Below, in pieces: positions 4,097 to 59,400 of a stretch of DNA of 64,000 bases. The stretch covers positions 39,684,979-39,748,978 of the forward strand of contig NC_090704.1 of the NCBI RefSeq assembly GCF_040954835.1, in the 5' to 3' direction. This stretch comes from Lepisosteus oculatus (taxonomy: Eukaryota; Chordata; Actinopteri; Semionotiformes; Lepisosteidae). The notes below the pieces were generated by a model. It was given only the letters and a program-made list of their open reading frames with translations. It did no database searches and was not told the origin of the DNA. Within the stretch, counting starts at the first letter, position 1. Each line of letters opens with the position of its first letter. The position numbers and the translations under genes are program-made.

Positions 4097-6914
4097 GTAA
4101 GCCGTGATATCAGCATCGCCTTTTCTGGCTATAATGAGTTAAGAAAGTTCTGTTGACTGGAGTCAGATTGTAACTTTTGATGTATGGTGGGGACAACTGT
4201 ACGTATAAATGTATAACCGGGAGCTTCTGGGTAAGGAAACTATAATTCCTCATTACTTTACTTTCTGTTTAACACTATTTACTATAGTTAAAATAGCCAT
4301 AATAACCGTAATATAATAAGCGGTGTGATTTTTTTTTAAATCAACGGGTAACTAAATATTTTTTTCATTGAAAAGTCATATTTTATATTTTAATGTATTT
4401 CTCTCAAATTAACATAAATTGTTTCGTTTTGAAAACAGGGAATTTTAGTTGCTGTACTGCCACGCTTATTTCCCGATGTAATATTTAAGTTTTTGACGTT
4501 CGCTTTTGCAGCAGAGCTCACGAGCGAGAAACATTTTGTTTATTATCATTTGTATGTGGTGTTGATTTTGGCCGTAATATGCTTTTTCGTGATTAATGCT
4601 ATTAAATTACAGCATTTTATCCAAAATATATTTTATTGGCTGTATATGAAGAAGAGTAAAAATTCACTTACGTTTTACGAAAAGCATGTATGTATTTTCA
4701 TGACTTATTCACTTAATGTTTTGTCTGTATAGGCTGCAAATATCAGTCTTAGTTTTTTGTATAGGTACTGTGTGATATTTGCCTCTGCTTGACATACAAC
4801 TTTGTGTTATTGTCATTTTAAAAATGCTACTATGTTATTGTATTTCATGCATTTTATACAGTTCCCGATTATTAAATGTATACGAATCGATATTTATATA
4901 TTCAGGTGGGTAGCTGCGTCCGCATGTGTAGGCTGCAAAGGAACAAGTAATAGGTTTATTCCATGCTGAAAAAAGAAGAAAGAGAACACAACGTTTCGGT
5001 CGTGGAGCCTTCTTCAGGTGTGAGAAGGCCCACACCTGAATAAGGCTCCACGACCGAAACGTTGTGTTCTCTTTCTTCTTTTTTCAGCATGGAATAAACC
5101 TATTACTTGATATTTATATATGTTTTGCATGTAAGGAAATTGTAGTATTGTATGTACTTACAGTTTACAATACATGTAGGTTTAGTGTATATACAGTACA
5201 TGCATTTAAAGCAATACATACAGTACATCATAGAGCTACAGTACAATAGCCTATTTTCAGAGAATTTGGCAAGGGATTTGAAGAAAGCTACTGTATTCAA
5301 TAAAGGGATGTCTTCCTTAAGCAGTGCAAAATATCCATCAAATACCAGAGTTTTTTTTAGGGGGGCAGTACATAACCACTGCAGCTGGCATTTGCCACTC
5401 CATCTGGGGCCAATATTGGGGTACTGGGTTGGGTTTCCCTAAAGAAAAAAACCCATATCACTCAAGATTAAAGAAAGATGGAGTTGTTATATCCCAGGAG
5501 TATAGTACAGTTTCCCTAGTGCTCAGTCTCCTTAATGATCCAAAAACCAGCCAAATCTGTGATAATGCTTTCAGAATTGTGCCAGCTGTGCAGGATGGAA
5601 AGGAACTCTTAAAACAAACACACGGGGACTATTATTTGAAAACATTTCTCAGGATAAACTAAAACAAACTGGAACTTGACACCGTCTGCTAAAGCTGCAG
5701 TTACCAACATAACATCAGTTACAGTTTATAAAGGTGAAGGGACTTCCCTGTGTCACTGGCCCTTCAGTTCATCGCCCAGCCTGTACTGGATTTATCTTAA
5801 AATCAGTTCGCCGTCCAGGATGCTTCATTTGATGAGAGTGCAACGCCTCAGTTGAGTTTTAGCTGTCAGAGAACACCGTCTGCTGCTGGTTTAAGTGTCA
5901 TTGCTAAACTGAAAATAGAAAACAGGAAATTGCACTCACACTGAAAGCAAGGTTCCTTATTAAGTGTAACATCAGAACTTGCTGGCAAATAATAGAACAT
6001 TAATAGCATACTAAGTGAAAACATACTGTCGCCTAACCAGAACAGAGGCACTGCTGTTAGTTTTATGTGGTTTCTGGGCATCTTGATTGTATAAAAATAA
6101 GTACAACTGCAATTGCTGGATTGCTGGAAACACAGGGATTGAATTGAATGATTGTGCAGCTGTGTGTTTGTGTGGGTGAAACAGCTGAATTAGGAAACTG
6201 TTTAGTCAGATTTACAAAGAAATATAGTGAAAGATGTTATTGTACATTTCATGCTTTGATGCATGAAAACGCCTTGTATCCTTTTAAGGCAAGAGTTCTA
6301 GGGATTGTGTGTGTGTTTTGACTTAAAGTTTTGGGCTGTCTACCAGTGAACAAACATGATTATACTTGGTATATTTTTAAGTATCTGATTTTCTACTACC
6401 TCAGATGTTTAAGATTTGCAACGAACAAAGGAAAACGCAGCTTCATAAGGGCCACAGCTTCTGCTTTATTGGAGATAACTTGAATTAAATGGGAAAGTTA
6501 AAATAAGATTTGGTTGAATGAGATCCTTGGATCAATTAACTACGGGAAACTGGAAAGCAAGCGTGTGGATAGAATGGCCTTCTCTGCCTTGTAATCTTTT
6601 TTTTTAATGCTTTTAAAGCAAGTTATCCCTTGTATTTATTCAGGGAAATAGGCTGAATGAAAACCACCAGACACACGTATGAATGTCGAAGACTTTTACT
6701 GTGTCCCACTTTCCCAGGAATTTGTTGTGTTGCCCTGTTTTGACGACCATTTTTACTAGCTGACTGGGTAGGGCTGAAAAATGATCTGAAGAGAGCACAA
6801 GGGTGATGCAGGGGTGACGTGAAGATGAGAGGGCAGTTGAAAGGCTAAACATGCAGACCCCGTGCATGGTGTGTTTCTTTCCGCTCAGGAGTCTTTCTGT
6901 CTGTTCTTCTCCAG
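4097..6914 (+). other. RFNG: Candidate RFNG 5' UTR intron
   Basis: The stretch from the candidate donor at 4097 to the strong acceptor CTTCTCCAG at 6906-6914. It is AT-rich, contains the palindromic element at 4889-5120, and shows no supported exon. The right end is well supported; the left end is tentative. Confidence 0.4.
4889..5120. mobile_element. Complete palindromic (hairpin) element with 12-bp target duplication
   Basis: The insert at 4901-5108 is flanked on both sides by GATATTTATATA (4889-4900 and 5109-5120). A unique head at 4901-4945 (TTCAGGTGGGTAGCTG...) is followed by two inverted arms of about 79 bp. These are roughly 4946-5026 and 5030-5108, separated by a few bases, and I find one mismatch between them. 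Each arm holds GAACACAACGTTTCGG in one orientation or the other. The target duplication and hairpin show a mobile element. The class is inferred: variable-length duplications and a hammerhead-like core fit a Penelope-like or retrozyme-like nonautonomous element. Relatives lie at 10324-10505 and 57514-57632. Confidence 0.7.
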
Positions 6915-6994: not shown

Positions 6995-9900
6995 ATGCAC
7001 CTGTCCCGGGTTGGGATCAGTAAATTGTGCTTTGTGCTGTCCCTTGCTTTCTGTGCCTTCCTGCTGCTGCTGATCCCAGGGCTGCAGCCCCCACAGCGGC
7101 CTGTTGACCCCCCCCAGCCTCGACCTCATGGCAGGACCAAGGCGGGCTGGGAGGGAGGGGTCGGCCAGCCGCCCAGCCTTTCGGGGGCTTTAGAAAAAGC
7201 TCATGAAGCTCAGGTGGGCAATCCCAGGACAAGGGGCCACGGTGCAAAAGGAGAAACAAAAGACGTGGACACACTAGGGGGACAGGCCCAGACACCCAAA
7301 GCTAAGAGCTCCGCCCTGATTAACATGGCTGTGGGTCACAAAGACTCTGCACCGTTTTCTGGGAGCAACAGTCTCCATGATCTCCATGGACTCCCTCGTC
7401 CTAGGGACAGACTGGAGCTGGGGGACATATTTATTGCTGTGAAAACAACTAGGAAATACCACAAGTCTCGACTGAACCTGCTTTTCCAGACCTGGATTTC
7501 TAGAGCCAAGGACCAGGTAACTACAATCCCTTTAAGGACAAATTTCTCTCTGGCCTCTCTCAACCTGGACGCCTTTGCCCGGCTCCAGTTTCCAAGTTCC
7601 AGACCTTGGAGCTGAATCTGAAAAGGAGGAATGTTAAAACTTACCAAAAACCCCACTGAAATGTCAGTGTATCGTGCTGAGGAGTTTTTGTAACATTTAA
7701 GAAGCCTGCTCTCCCACTCTCTGTACCTGTGCCAAGATAAAGTCGTCCTATGGTCTCATGGCTGTTATCCCATCCCCCATAATAACATGCTTCCAACAGT
7801 TTGGAAGCAATTTGGAATCCTTCTTAGTCATGGGATTGTGTTCAGTCCCAGAATGCTGAAAACCCCATAGTACTTATGTAAACCACATTTCAGCAAAGCC
7901 AGCTTACCAAAAACACAGCCATTTGTTACTTATTTGTATATAACAATGTAGCTAAAATTCAGGTTTAATCACTGATTGCCTCACATTTATTGCTGCTTTT
8001 CAGTTGATGCTTATATTCAGAAAAAGCTCATATTTTGCTCTTTACACGTAGCTCACATATATATGTTGCAATTAGGTCCTAAGCACTCTCTGAAATTAAG
8101 AGGAATTCAATGCTAATTTCTATAAAAAAGTTGTGTTCATATTTTTAAAATATCTTTAGATCTCAAAAGCACTAGATCTTTAAGACTGTTTCAAGCTTGT
8201 ATGGCTTGAAGCAACTTTTCCTTTAATACCTTTACTTGGTAAAAGTTATTAGAAATGCATGGAAAATCAGTCTTTTCTCAGCCTTTTAAAATCCAAGAGG
8301 TACTGTCATCTGAAAAAGTAACACCAGTTGTGCTAGTCTTATACTACTAACCTTTTTTTTTATATAGCACCTTTCATTGTACATCCCCTCCTGTCACTGT
8401 GTGGTAAAACAATGAGCCGTATGAAAGAGTCAGTTGTTTAGGACACCAAGTAAAAGTGTCTGTAAAAGAAACCATTTAGCAAGCCTGGAGCATGGAATCT
8501 GCTGACAGACTGTGCTACAAGGTCCAGGTCTCCAGCAGACTCTTGCCTGGGAGGAAGATCTTCGGGAATTTGAAACTGATCCACGTCTCCCAGCCTCCAG
8601 GGCTACTGTTAGCCTCAGCCAAGGAATATGGGCTTTTTTCTCTCAAGGCATGACGCAGGCAGAAACCACTGCGTGTGTGCTGCTGCTGAGCCGACAGCCC
8701 ACGTAGTTTCTTTCAGATGGCGGAGGAACTTTGATCTGCTTCTCAGTGGTTTGTGTTTTGTACCAGCTTCTTTTGTGGCACTTAAGGTGAAGCTGCCTTT
8801 TGCCCAGTTTTCTCTGTCTTGGAGCCCCAAACAAGATAGCCTGCTCTCTGGGAGGCTGATAACATTGAATGAGGATTAAGGATTAGGAGGGCAATGAGGG
8901 GGTTGTGATTTTCAGTGCAAATGTAGCCTCTGTTTAGTGCAAATGTTGGAAAGCTTTACAGCAGTACATTGTAAAAAAACAGGATCTAATGCTCAGCAAT
9001 GGCAAAAAAATAGAAAAGAATGTTTTGTACCATAGAAGCCTGCATTATCAGGTTTGAGAGGCTCATGACTGTTTTCAGGGACAAAGGGAAAATGCTTTCA
9101 GATGGTATAAATAAAATGTTAAATAGGCTGTTTTATTAGTGAATTAAAGAAACATAACTGAAAGCTTTTTGCCGAAGGAAATGTAGGCTGAGAGACGGGG
9201 GAACAGTACTTTTCTGATTTCCTTACAATATCGGTTTGCACGTCGGCAGTCAGAGTGAGAGCGAGACAACCCACTGTTTAATTGCTTTAAGGTGTTTAAA
9301 ATGTCTTGAAGGAACATACGGTTTCTAGTCTGTGAGCTGGGTAGGCCTCAGGCCGGTGCCAAAGGTTGGCTCCAGGTTTGAAAGGAGGGATTGTCTACAT
9401 GTGAGTAAAGGAAATGGGAGCCTAAATGTTTATTTTCAAAGTAAAAATCTGAATGCGTTTCCCTAAGGGATTATGCAGTCTGTCAAAAATATAGAACAAT
9501 ATGCAGTACGTTTAAGTGAAAGGCCGTTTCTGAAACCTTAAAACGTCTTAGCACCTGCTTAGACTAACAACTAGCTTGAAAGGGTGTGAAAACCACTTTA
9601 GGTGCATCTTAGGTTATTTCCCTGAGTATGTTGTACTCTTAATGCATTCTGTATATCTATCATGATCTTTGTTTTTTTTAAATGTTGAAATTATTTAAAG
9701 AATTTAGCAGTGTTGGTTGCAACTAAGTCAAAAGTGGTAACAAAAACTAAAATGCATGAAAAAAATGATTATAGGTAGGTTAAGGCTACAGCAGGCTGTA
9801 GTTCCAATATAAACTTACAGGAAACACCAGGTGCTTTTCAGAAGAATTGCTAATAAGCATTTTCCAAGAATGTAGGAGAGCATAATTCGACTAAACTGAA

Positions 9901-12900
9901 GATTCAGAAATTTAAATATTAATACACAACGTGATGAAGTACATTAAATATATGCAATGACAAATTGATTGCAAGGAATACAAAATACATTGCTACTGGA
10001 ATGTTTTGGTTTGCAATACCCAAGGAACGTACATTATTTCTGCATGTACAAATGAGAAATAACAGTTTATGATGAATTACAATAAGAAATCATCTGTAAG
10101 ATACCTGTTACTAGTGGAAATTTGAACTATGGATATAGTACATTCAAGGTTCAGATTATGTAGGGACTAGTGTTCATTGCCAAATAAAATTGTGCATCAA
10201 CTGAGTACCAGTAGAAACCAATAACTCCTCCTGGGGAAATTACCTAATTTGTGTCTACTGAAATCACTTGGAGGCCATAAGTACATATGTTTTGAGATAC
10301 TTGTATTAACCTCCACAAAGTAGTTCAGGTAGGTAGCTGTATCATCATGCGTAGGCTGCAAAGGAACAAGTAAAGGTTTATTCCATGCTGAAAAGAATAA
10401 AAGAAACACAATGTTTCAGCTATGGAGTCTTCTTCGGGTATCACAGCCAAAACATTGTTTCTTTTTGTCTCTTTTCATCCTAGAATAAATATTTTCTTGC
10501 TCCTTAGCTTCCATGAAGACATCTTGCATATTGGCATCTGTCCCTCTGCTCTTTTGGTTTATACCAGCTCAGATTCCTGTAGATTCCTGGTGTCTTATTC
10601 TCCGGGTAAAGAGAAGGAGGAAGAGCAGTATCCAGTGGAAATCCAATGTTGTCAAATTTGTAGGAAACCTGCTGTCCAAAGAGGTCTTGGCTTTATAGCT
10701 GTAGCTTGACAAGCCAATGTTAGAGCAGACCTGCTTCAAAACCACAAGCAAGTTCAGCAAGGCTGAGATCCACCCTACCTCAGAAAAACCTGAGCCTGCT
10801 TCATAAGAAAGGGTGTGGCAGCACTTCTTAAGATCCAAGCACTTATGTAAATCCCCGAACAAAAAGAACCGCATTGTGCGTCACACAATTAATACAACGT
10901 CTTCACTGTTTTTCTTGGCTGTTCATAAAAGGGTGGAAATAAATGCTTACTGTAGCACTCATCCTTGCTCTTTTCTTTTTTCAGACATATGTATTCACAG
11001 ATGGGGAGGACAAGGAGCTGAGAAAGAAAGCAGGTAATACAACAAGCACAGAGCAACTCATGAGTGAGTTGCATTATTACAGTTGCATTTTGCAGTAGGA
11101 CCCCAAAAGCTGTGATAAAGGTTCATTCAAAAAGTGGAGATTTTGATTTTGGAACATGATGAAGAATATTTAGAAACTCAGAGGACACTAGATCTGAGAT
11201 ATAATATCAGATCAGGAAAGGCACTATTCAAAAAGGACAAACAGTCCTTTCTTCACTGACCTGTTGATTTCCAGAGTGGTGAAGCACAATTGACCAATAG
11301 TAACCAGGTATGAGTTGCCCAAGCTATCCTGAGCTTGCAATACTGCATTGACCTCTAAGACTTGCTGAACATCTGTGAACCAGGTGACTTAACCTGCAAA
11401 TGAATAGAGAGGATGAGAAGGAAACGAGTCTGTCGTAGAGAGAAGAGGGAAGGCGTGATCCTGGTTTCGGGTTTTGCACATTAGATGGTAGGTTTGCCAC
11501 CTTCAGATAACACACACCTGTGGAATTTAGCCGTTGCTAGAAGAAACAATACTCTTCTTTCTGTTCACAGGGTCCCACATGATCAACACCAACTGCTCGG
11601 CAGCTCACACTCGCCAGGCACTGTGCTGCAAGATGTCGGTGGAGTATGACAAGTTCATCGAGTCCCAGAGAAAGTGAGTACTCCCAAGTGTCCTCACACT
11701 GTGTTTGTCTTGCCTGCATTGCCTTACTTCTGCTCTACTTTCAAAACTACAAAATTGTAACGGAGCACGTTTCCTCATGTCAACATTCCATCTGGTCAGT
11801 AAAACAAATGAAAACATTTTAAAATGTATCTGCAAACATATTGGTATTAGCAGAGAGAAGCCATGTGCATCATTTTATTCTTTATTGGGCATTATTTTTA
11901 TGCAATGTCCCTTTGTTTGGAGTGTATATTCAGTAAAAAAAAAACATTCTGCTATTTCAACAAAACCAGACATATTTTGTACTGGAGTTTCATCTTTGTA
12001 TATTTTGTGGATGTGGCTTGTTTCAATGGGTTTTCACAGGGTGCAGTAGGTAATGCATGTGAAGACGTTTAGAGGGTGTTTATATTGAAAATGTCCATTT
12101 AAACCCTGTGGAGCAGACTGGGGATGCTGTGCAGTAAGACACTGCTGTGGCATCTGAGCCCTGCGTTGTGTTTCTTGTGCGCCCAGGTGGTTCTGCCATG
12201 TGGACGACGACAACTACGTGATCCTTCCCAGCCTGATGAGGCTGCTGTCATCTTACTCCCACACGCAGGACGTCTATCTGGGCCGGCCCAGCCTGGACCA
12301 CCCAATCGAGGCTCCTGAGAGAGTAAAAAGTGATGGTCTGGTGCGTTCCTGTTGTGCTTGAACACTGTTTCTTTGCATCTTCCAACATATATGGTTTTAG
12401 TGCGAAACTGAGGTTTTCGGGCCACTACCTAGGTGACCTAAAAGTGGATGTGTGACCAAATAAAAGCATTGCGTTTAACAATGGGGATTTTTCCTATCTG
12501 CACAGTGACACAGATGTGCTACCCTCTCCATGCCTTCCTGTAAAAGAGTCTACTGTACATGGCTATGGAATGGGTAGCTGCTGAATGGTATAGATGTATG
12601 ATTGGTTGGTGTTCCCAGCCTGCACTAGGGCAGCAAGCTCTACTATGTTGTCATACAGATGGGGTGTACTCTCTGTGGCTCCATGGTTGTGCATGTGTGT
12701 TTTGGGAGAGCTCTTTGTGTTTCCTGCCCTCCTGTACATTGTCTGCGCCATGTGTGCCTTGACTGCATTGTGGTGAATGAGGTTTTACTTCAGCACATTG
12801 TCCGATACTTTGCCCCCCCCTGTCTCCTGCAGACATCGGTGAAGTTCTGGTTTGCCACAGGAGGAGCTGGGTTCTGTATCAGCCGAGGATTGGCACTCAA

Positions 12901-56400: not shown

Positions 56401-59400
56401 TGTATTGGCACTTCTATTGTATTGGCATTGAATAGCCCTCAAAGCAAACGGGCAGGTGACTCCTCAGTATTGTCATTCTTCACCTGAACCTTATTCCTAC
56501 TACTGTAAAGGGTTGGCACTACAGCAGAGATCTTCCAGACAGGGTGGATTCAAGGTCCATCTAATTCTTGGTGGAGTATGCTGTGCAATAGGTATCATCA
56601 GGAAAGTTTTCTTTTCCTTTTTTTTCCCCCCAAAACACCTCACCTGCTGTGTCTGCCCATTTCATCTCGTTGCTTATCAATTGTCTCCATCAGGCTTAAG
56701 AACTGTAGAGATCAATCAAGAAAAACATTTTACAAACAAATCCATCACAGCATCTCCACAGACTGGAACAAGAACATAGTTCTGAGAAGGATCACTCACA
56801 GAACTGTTCATTCCTCTCAGGTGGGCCTGATGGCACAATGACAGTATATTAAGTGCCTAGGATAGAGGGGTTGAGTTACAAGTGCATTAACCCCATGGTA
56901 AATGTACTGTAGCATAATGCAAAATGCCCCACTGACATCAACACCCACCCACCTGCTGGCCCTTCTCATCTTTCAGATTCTGGATCTCCTTGGTGAGCAC
57001 CTGGGTCCTGCTGCGAGCCTCTCTCAGAGTGGACTGCCGGTCCGTGTTATGGCCTGTGGACTGCTCTGTGAAGACAAATAAACAGCACAGGAGGCGGTAT
57101 TACACTCACACACTGCATTAAAACACACATCACGTCAGTTAGATTTTTTGTCTAGGTGAGAAGATGAACAGAACCCTGAGGTCACTAGTTTTTGATTGAA
57201 ACTCAGGCTGACAGGTAGGGAAATCTCAATGTTGCTACAGGAAAAGAACGAAAAATTGGTCTTGTTCTGTTTTAATAAGGCGGCACAAGGAGGTTTTGCG
57301 TCCTATTCTGCTTACCAACAGCTTTAAGAGTGTAGCTGGGAATGTTGTTTCCTGCCATCTCCAGCTGTAGAAGTGTTTTGTTGTGCTGCAACGACTCCAG
57401 TATAGAGCGTCCCCCCAGGAGTCCAATATTGTTCCACCGCAGATCTGGAAACAAGTTGAAAGAGGTCAATTAGGCATGAGTGCATTTCAAACAACAATAA
57501 AAGTAAAATGAAGTAGTTCAGGTGGGTAGCTGTGTCAGCATGTGTAGGCTGCAAAGGAACATGTAATGGGTTTATTCCATGCTGAAAAGAGAAGAAAGAA
57601 AACACATTTCGGCCATGGAGCCTTCTTCAGCTACAACCGAAAGGCTTAAAAAGAGGAAATTTTGAATTTTGGAATAGCTATGTGAGAGTCCTGACCTTAA
57701 CTCAATTGAAATGTTGCTGCATGCCATGAAGCAAGCTGTTCCTGCAAGACATCCCAGAAATATCAATGAATTGAAGTAGTTCTGTAAAGAGTAATGGCCA
57801 AAATCGATGTGCAAGACTGATCAGCAGCTACAGGACACGTTTGGTTGAGGTCACTGCTGCTAAAAGAGGTTCACATACTTTATCCAGCACAGACAGCAAA
57901 TGTTTAAACAATTTGTTCAATATAGACATTAAACGTACAACTGTTTGTGTGTTATTTGTTTAACCAGATTATGTTTATCTATTATTATGACAGAGATGAA
58001 GATCAAATCACAGAAATACAGGAAATTCTATAGGGTTCACAATCTTTTTCTTACCACTACGTCTCTAAAGCAGCAGCATTGTAGGATTCAGGAGAAGTGA
58101 ATAAATTGGTCAATTTAAGTTAACAGCTAACTGATATAGGATATTAAGGACCTACTGTATATGGAGTGGACAGACCTAGACCAAAACAAACCCACCAAGC
58201 TCCTGTAGCGTGCTGTTTCGCTTCAGAGCCAAGGCTAGCTCTGCTGCCCCCTGGTGATTGATCTGGTTGTTGCGCAGGTCAAGCTGTTTCAGACAGCCAT
58301 TGGAGCCGAGCCCCTCACAGAATATTGAGAATGCTTCATTCCACATCCCCAGGGCATTCCACTCTAGAACCAGCCTGCAACACAGCAGCAATCCACGCTA
58401 ACCACAGTGAAGACCGCATAGCAACATTCCTCTAAATGTGAAGTAATTTTGAATAGGTGTTCAAACCTTTAAGGGAAGTGATTGTCTAGACTCTAGAGAG
58501 TTGGTGTATCACTAACATGCTTTTGTTTGTTGACCAATGGCAGAAGTAATCAGTTTATCTCTCCTCCAAGCATGAAAAACACTTAGGAGACCACCCTAAC
58601 CACAAGATTTGGATCTGTTGGTTCTGCAGTGCAAGGAACCTTCATTTCTCAATTTACCATTCATTACATTCTCCTCACCTGCGCAGTGACTTGTTGTGTG
58701 CCAGTAACTTCCCCAGAGCTTCTGATCCTGTTGCTCTCATGTTGTTGCCCTACAACGCAAACAGTCTGTGTTTAATTTAGCATTGCACCCTGGACCATGA
58801 CCTCTACATGGTCATCATTGCAATTGCACAGGATGTTAAAGGTGAAACCAACTGCATTGTTAAAAATATGCAGAATGAAACAAATGATCTAAAAAACTAC
58901 AAAGGAATTCATAGTAAGAATATGTATTAAACAAGTAAAGCATTTATGAAATGAGAATGTGGTTTGGAAAACTTTTTGTGATGTCTGAATAATGTTATTT
59001 TGTGATGCTATAAAAAGCCATTTAGGACAGTTTCATAATTAACTACCCAGAATGACAGAAAGAACCACGTGTTTCATTCAACAGTTTAAAGCAGAAAAAT
59101 TACAGGCACCCCACCTTCATCTTCTTTGGAAACAAGCCTGCAGTTACTATGTCAAGATTATACTGCTTACCTTGAGATCCAGCACTTTAACCGTTGTGTT
59201 GGAACACAGACCATGCAACAGCAGCTTGGCACCTGAGATTGACAAGAAGAGGAATGTCAGTGACACAGACAGATGGTATAAAACCCTACAGAGCCTCTCT
59301 CACATTTACATTTGTCTCCCTCCTAAGGTTAGGCTCCACAGTAGAAGAGAGCCAGAGGTTAAGAACAAACAGGCGCCATCTACTGCAAGATTATTAGTGG

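Follow-up and report, generated by a model that had tools for sequence, protein, structure and literature searches.

Among the closest described systems to the insertion reported here is Poseidon of Anolis carolinensis (PAc), a Penelope-like element (PLE) with a reverse transcriptase (RT), a GIY-YIG endonuclease, a pLTR and a tail that corresponds to the RNA between two reverse-transcription start sites (PMC11167929). In an in-vitro assay with this anole element, both target strands are cleaved and extended in AT-rich targets; the start sites lie inside the start of the ORF, and a hammerhead cleaves once the protein has been added. The later steps of PLE integration are, according to the same paper, still to be validated. 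For the Penelope elements of Adineta vaga, passages of PMC3846280 describe inverted pLTRs, mostly head-to-head, that flank the ORF and carry an optional 31-bp tail on one of them, as well as target duplications of 8-10 bp. The curation guide PMC8969392 likewise counts inverted pLTRs among the features of PLEs, together with short 3' extensions. How PLEs complete their integration, and why inverted pLTRs come with a one-sided tail, is made testable by thousands of short insertions in the genome of the gar Lepisosteus oculatus. The gar element is similar to PAc in its RT and GIY-YIG coding, its pLTR and its tail between two RNA start sites, and apparently also in the cutting and extension of both strands of AT-rich targets, but the argument rests on genomic insertions in gar and on the assay in PAc; furthermore, start sites inside the ORF start are a trait of PAc.

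The fold-back in the window and its identity

The window, a stretch of 64,000 nucleotides (contig NC_090704.1, positions 39,684,979 to 39,748,978 of assembly GCF_040954835.1), contains a fold-back of 208 bp (4901-5108) with two arms of 79 nt (4944-5022 and 5031-5109) that are 99% complementary, a loop of 8 nt (5023-5030) and a head present on one side only (4901-4943). The direct repeat GATATTTATATAT of 13 nt is found at 4889-4901 and 5109-5121. Its left copy, GATATTTATATA(T), is ambiguous at T4901, and the last arm G (5109) is common to the arm and the right copy; therefore, the target-site duplication is 12 or 13 bp long. These features are not due to chance, and the original prediction of an intact 208-bp hairpin with near-perfect arms of about 79 bp, a one-sided head and 12-bp duplications agrees with them.

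The comparison of genomic copies, together with the tail anatomy given in PMC11167929 and in passages of PMC3846280, identifies the head (minus strand) as the PLE tail, i.e., the stretch of RNA bounded by the reverse-transcription start sites A and B, which the plus strand carries in antisense. Arm 1 (minus strand) is the antisense copy of the PLE pLTR, that is, of the 5' region of the RNA, whereas arm 2 (plus strand) is the same RNA region on the opposite strand, ending near site B and having no tail. The loop between them, assigned to no strand like the two duplications, would be the joint of two cDNA ends; its length and sequence differ among copies. Read in RNA sense, the arms stand 5' end to 5' end, i.e., head-to-head. 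The family is represented twice more in the window, by an older fold-back at 10321-10510 (minus strand; its arm 2 end was judged by eye) and a one-sided copy at 57514-57630 (minus strand, delimited by eye), in which the tail and one arm are followed by non-folding sequence.

Some of the copies sampled by their tails (see below) extend beyond the arm into a common body. Three long copies (L071, L062 and L068) have head and arm in common with the window hairpin and contain, in RNA sense, frames for RT and/or the GIY-YIG endonuclease. L071 possesses both, interrupted by stops, with GIY-YIG downstream of the RT frame, and the arm follows directly downstream of its ORF, which is the place of a PLE pLTR. 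In a Pfam scan of this one copy, GIY-YIG (PF01541) was found at the C-terminal side with 22.7 bits (cut-off 22.6), and RVT_1 had an E value of 7.7e-6 with 26.2 bits, under its cut-off of 29.6. In sequence searches of PDB, the RT had no match at E 0.01, and the endonuclease piece had only two, both weak (E 0.67 and 0.98). A pLTR, inverted copies and a one-sided tail of 30-40 bp, described for endonuclease-bearing (EN+) PLEs in passages of PMC3846280 and in PMC11167929, are all present. The window hairpin is a PLE insertion, its arm is a PLE pLTR and its head is the known one-sided PLE tail. The prediction of a Penelope-type retroelement rather than a MITE was correct, but the hairpin is not the separate nonautonomous element that it assumed; it is a short product left by the insertion of a PLE, longer copies of which carry RT and GIY-YIG. 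Repeat annotators should be warned that such hairpins need not be MITEs. Hairpin anatomy and PLE membership as such are already known; new are the arguments for dual priming, for run-off and for the cap.

Note that the PLEs were reached via the tail pattern rather than via an RVT_1 profile search of the genome. The latter gave at least 150 matches over the cut-off, many of them with open frames of 1000-1500 codons; the genome therefore appears to be rich in intact-looking retroelement frames of other kinds.

Copies of the family and their target sites

The search of the 1.2-Gb genome with the hairpin, which had been recommended as a check, gave 1219 candidates, the best 40 of which (L009-L048, window copy included) were scored and fetched with flanks. 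Selection by similarity to the entire hairpin makes this set biased, and therefore a separate search was made with the head alone. The head pattern occurs at 8538 places in the genome with up to three mismatches, and the reversed-head control pattern at none. One hundred listed head matches, all exact and on one contig, served as the tail sample: 80 were fetched first and 11 later (held-out loci), while of the remaining nine, eight lie in a tandem array and one (L014) was already in the hairpin set. Removal of the array duplicate L058 from the 80 left 79 loci, and it is on these, with the held-out loci kept apart, that the arm-length script was run. Position 1 of the reference numbering is the first G of GGTGGG.

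By the rule of this script, 38 of the 79 loci fold back, a lower bound, because the 450-bp fetches miss the far end of long copies. Copy length varies within the sample, which also includes one-sided copies and others that contain PLE coding sequence. In Adineta vaga the inverted pLTRs, as far as the passages of PMC3846280 go, flank the ORF; in gar 36 of the 38 sampled inverted copies are short and have no ORF. Copies seen only as neighbours of sampled ones have the tail mostly at one end, and no tail-less fold-back was noticed among them (both by eye). Neighbours with a tail-less end are present in the L061 and L068 stretches, and L038 apparently has a tail at both ends.

Exact duplications accompany most of these hairpins. 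For 28 of the 40 hairpin-search copies the longest exact flank match was 11-16 bp (7/2000 for mismatched flanks). In the tail sample, an exact duplication of at least 9 bp was present at the expected place in 32 of the 38 hairpins (mismatched-flank control, 17/1883) and in 16 of the 41 non-hairpin loci, some of which extend beyond the fetched stretch (control, 2/2025). The duplications measure 10-16 bp in 48 of the 79 loci, varying in length as predicted, and consist to 78% of A+T. Variable duplications in AT-rich DNA are a feature of EN+ PLEs, and the PLE targets in anole are AT-rich as well (PMC11167929). Instead of the constant short duplications and symmetric ends of a MITE or DNA transposon, which had been named as evidence against the original prediction, the copies have variable duplications and a one-sided tail.

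In one region (6,500,637-6,566,388 of contig C1, which includes L057 and L058), ten exact tail matches are mostly 6.3-6.4 kb from one place to the next, so that this tandem array seems to hold one PLE insertion per unit. The copies in L057 and L058 have the same 15-bp duplication.

Arm ends around position 118

The inner ends of the first arms are clustered. In the 79 loci of the tail sample, 39 lie at 110-128, 14 below 110, two at 130-139 and 24 at 200 or beyond, six of the latter being truncated by the limit of the fetched stretch. Position 118 is the most frequent exact end (12 of the 58 first arms that have a readable anchor), and 32 of these arms end at 115-121; the second arms (n=29) end at 118 in six cases, at 120 in five and at 121 in four. 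In the set chosen by hairpin likeness, the modal ends are 122 for first arms (13/35) and 119 for second arms (12/32). The window copy is of that sort: it ends with GTGTGAGA/CACACC rather than at 118 followed by C, i.e., the modal end is absent from it. The 11 held-out loci provided nine short-range ends, four at 119, three at 117 and two at 118, so this small set does not single out 118; both of its arms ending at 118 continue with C, one of them (L137) ambiguously.

Position 118 corresponds, on the RNA strand, to the A of TCACACC, a sequence that agrees with the initiator consensus YYANWYY. Of the 18 arms that stop at 118, 16 are followed by C, compared with 18 of the 43 that stop at 115-117 or 119-122 (p 0.0007, for a position picked after looking); if the cases in which the C possibly belongs to the other arm are dropped, the former count becomes 10/12. 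The corresponding figures in the hairpin-likeness set are 8/12 and 15/55 (p 0.017). Genome-wide, with a following A excluded, C follows end 118 in 396 of 795 cases and end 116 in 113 of 565, the end-116 control being contaminated by point mutants of run-through copies. Among 100 listed rows per search, which come from the first contigs rather than from a random draw, a by-eye count of those with C or G as second base gave 38 with C and 53 with A or T for end 118, and 19 and 36, respectively, for end 116; scaled to totals, this corresponds to roughly 42% C at end 118 and 12% at end 116. A reverse transcriptase copying the cap guanosine adds an extra C. We therefore infer from the enrichment of C that the cDNAs ran off at the 5' end of capped RNA whose start position varies somewhat. 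Among the titles and abstract openings surveyed, which leave out most subscription papers, none mentioned run-off 5' ends, cap-derived C or an arm-length test for PLE inverted copies.

Joints, arm lengths and the route of integration

Loops are diverse among the hairpin-search copies, which suggests that each insertion forms its hairpin anew. Identical simple joints are present at different target sites in a few cases (L070 and L075; L017, L109 and L137), so that some loops are shared. Of 35 joints, with L055, L068 and L115 excluded, 13 have an overlap of 1-8 nt, five are flush and 17 contain 1-28 nt of filler, a spectrum that resembles error-prone end joining. The joint of L055 has a palindromic filler, GAAGAGTTAAATATATTAACTCTTC, which is not pLTR and is perhaps captured DNA.

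The outer ends of the second arms lie at 28-43 in 36 of the 38 hairpins (the end at 4 recorded for L055 is that of an older copy next to it, and the second arm of L055 itself ends at 40). In six hairpins (L076, L080, L088, L108, L115 and L127) the second arm is longer than the first by at least 30 nt, the excess being 30-59 nt. The reverse is found in L124 and L073, with first arms longer by 13-19 nt, and in two long copies, L068 and L078, the first arms are much longer than the second ones. In many hairpins the inner ends of the two arms are nearly equal. The two arms of one copy share 48 non-consensus letters, compared with 12.8 expected upon re-pairing (maximum 24 in 1000 shuffles; 61 pairs), and differ at 207 places, compared with 283 expected. 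The 61 pairs came from 77 sources; 16 were left out, 14 of them for fewer than 60 aligned columns in an arm, and L013 and L014 were removed as duplicates by outer sequence only, although they are probably distinct. The excess of common variants makes it likely that a single source locus gave rise to both arms; it is compatible with one template as well as with two RNAs of this locus and does not decide between them. An apparent hot spot of C/T discordance between the arms (reference position 97) appears to be query bias: both arms of the query have T, and similarity to the query was what selected the 40 best matches; by eye, it is lacking in the printed tail-sampled pairs.

The second arm could in principle result from self-priming, in which the first cDNA folds back and is copied. 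Passages of PMC3846280 favour this route, on an antisense template, for the rotifer elements and derive it from palindromes at inverted junctions. In gar, the two arms of a copy resemble each other closely, and the joints of L045, L061, L111 and L121 are palindromic; furthermore, with inner ends nearly equal in many hairpins, self-priming may account for individual copies. However, a self-primed arm cannot hold RNA sequence that is missing in the first arm, which is what the six hairpins with a longer second arm possess; for these, a later central deletion could be the remaining way out. In addition, the outer starts of the second arms occupy a range of their own, and their inner ends accumulate separately near 118-121. 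We consider self-priming unlikely as the general route, and the arm lengths in gar, unlike the interpretation given for Adineta vaga in these passages of PMC3846280, favour two priming events.

It is highly improbable that a separate nonautonomous hairpin element, MITE- or SINE-like, spreads as a unit of 208 bp. The copy number is high, and the best 40 of the 1219 matches are similar in length, but precisely these were chosen by similarity to the query; loops differ from copy to copy, and the tail sample has varying lengths and includes one-sided and PLE-coding copies. A retrozyme or another hammerhead-processed RNA, with the clustered ends as products of ribozyme cleavage, is very doubtful too. 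The sense arm has CTGAAGA...GAAAC between ACAC and GTGT, which by eye looks like a hammerhead core. A hammerhead motif in the pLTR, present in several PLEs and not obligatory, is known from the anole element (PMC11167929); unlike there, no Rfam hammerhead model matched the window copy or L071, so that the predicted retrozyme, a kind of element with a hammerhead in its long terminal repeats and a circular RNA unit, found no support. Folding predictions for the 40-nt stretch do not place it above its shuffles (z 0.10), and for these two reasons no ribozyme is claimed; for the 125-nt pLTR plus tail, z is -1.94, with 10 of 200 shuffles as good. Furthermore, the cDNAs copy through the core-like stretch and end just outside it, and hammerhead mutants of the anole element still insert RNA in vitro (PMC11167929). 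The 12 other Rfam rows for the window, plant microRNAs among them, are all under their own cut-offs and were rejected as chance matches of a long hairpin.

Taken together, the arm lengths, the joints and the extra C behind one end position speak for two priming events that were independent of each other and used sense RNA. Most probably, the window hairpin is a young insertion of an endonuclease-bearing PLE, in which both strands were primed at sites A and B and the cDNAs ran to or near the capped RNA 5' end and were joined. In this mechanism, the PLE protein would cut both target strands about 10-16 bp apart (12-13 bp for the window copy); reverse transcription would be primed by one target 3' end at site A and by its partner at site B, which lies some 40 nt closer to the 5' end of the RNA. 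The two cDNAs would run to or near the 5' end of a transcript starting at an initiator inside the pLTR, or stop early, and error-prone end joining would connect their 3' ends. The outcome would be two head-to-head arms, a one-sided tail, an individual loop, a target duplication and no ORF, i.e., two cDNAs joined at insertion rather than the tail-to-tail dimer originally suggested. Longer copies may derive from transcripts with an internal pLTR, an arrangement as in the tandem PLE loci described in PMC11167929.

As a general rule, it seems fairly probable that PLE integration is an asymmetric double priming (A vs B) and that the short hairpins are a run-off record of capped 5' ends, from which the genome sequence alone would reveal where transcripts start and by which pathway the ends are joined. 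The gar copies make a surprisingly clear case for double priming on the 5' end of the RNA. In L1 twin priming, a second priming event yields an inverted part, which is copied from a different RNA stretch. The gar hairpins would likewise owe their inverted part to a second priming event, but both of their arms copy the same RNA stretch. If transcription starts at the inner end of the arm, most short copies have no upstream promoter and are probably dead on arrival. In L115, three arm pieces are present in one insertion, two inverted pieces standing in tandem behind a short first arm, as if copying had jumped from an RNA 5' end to a second RNA.
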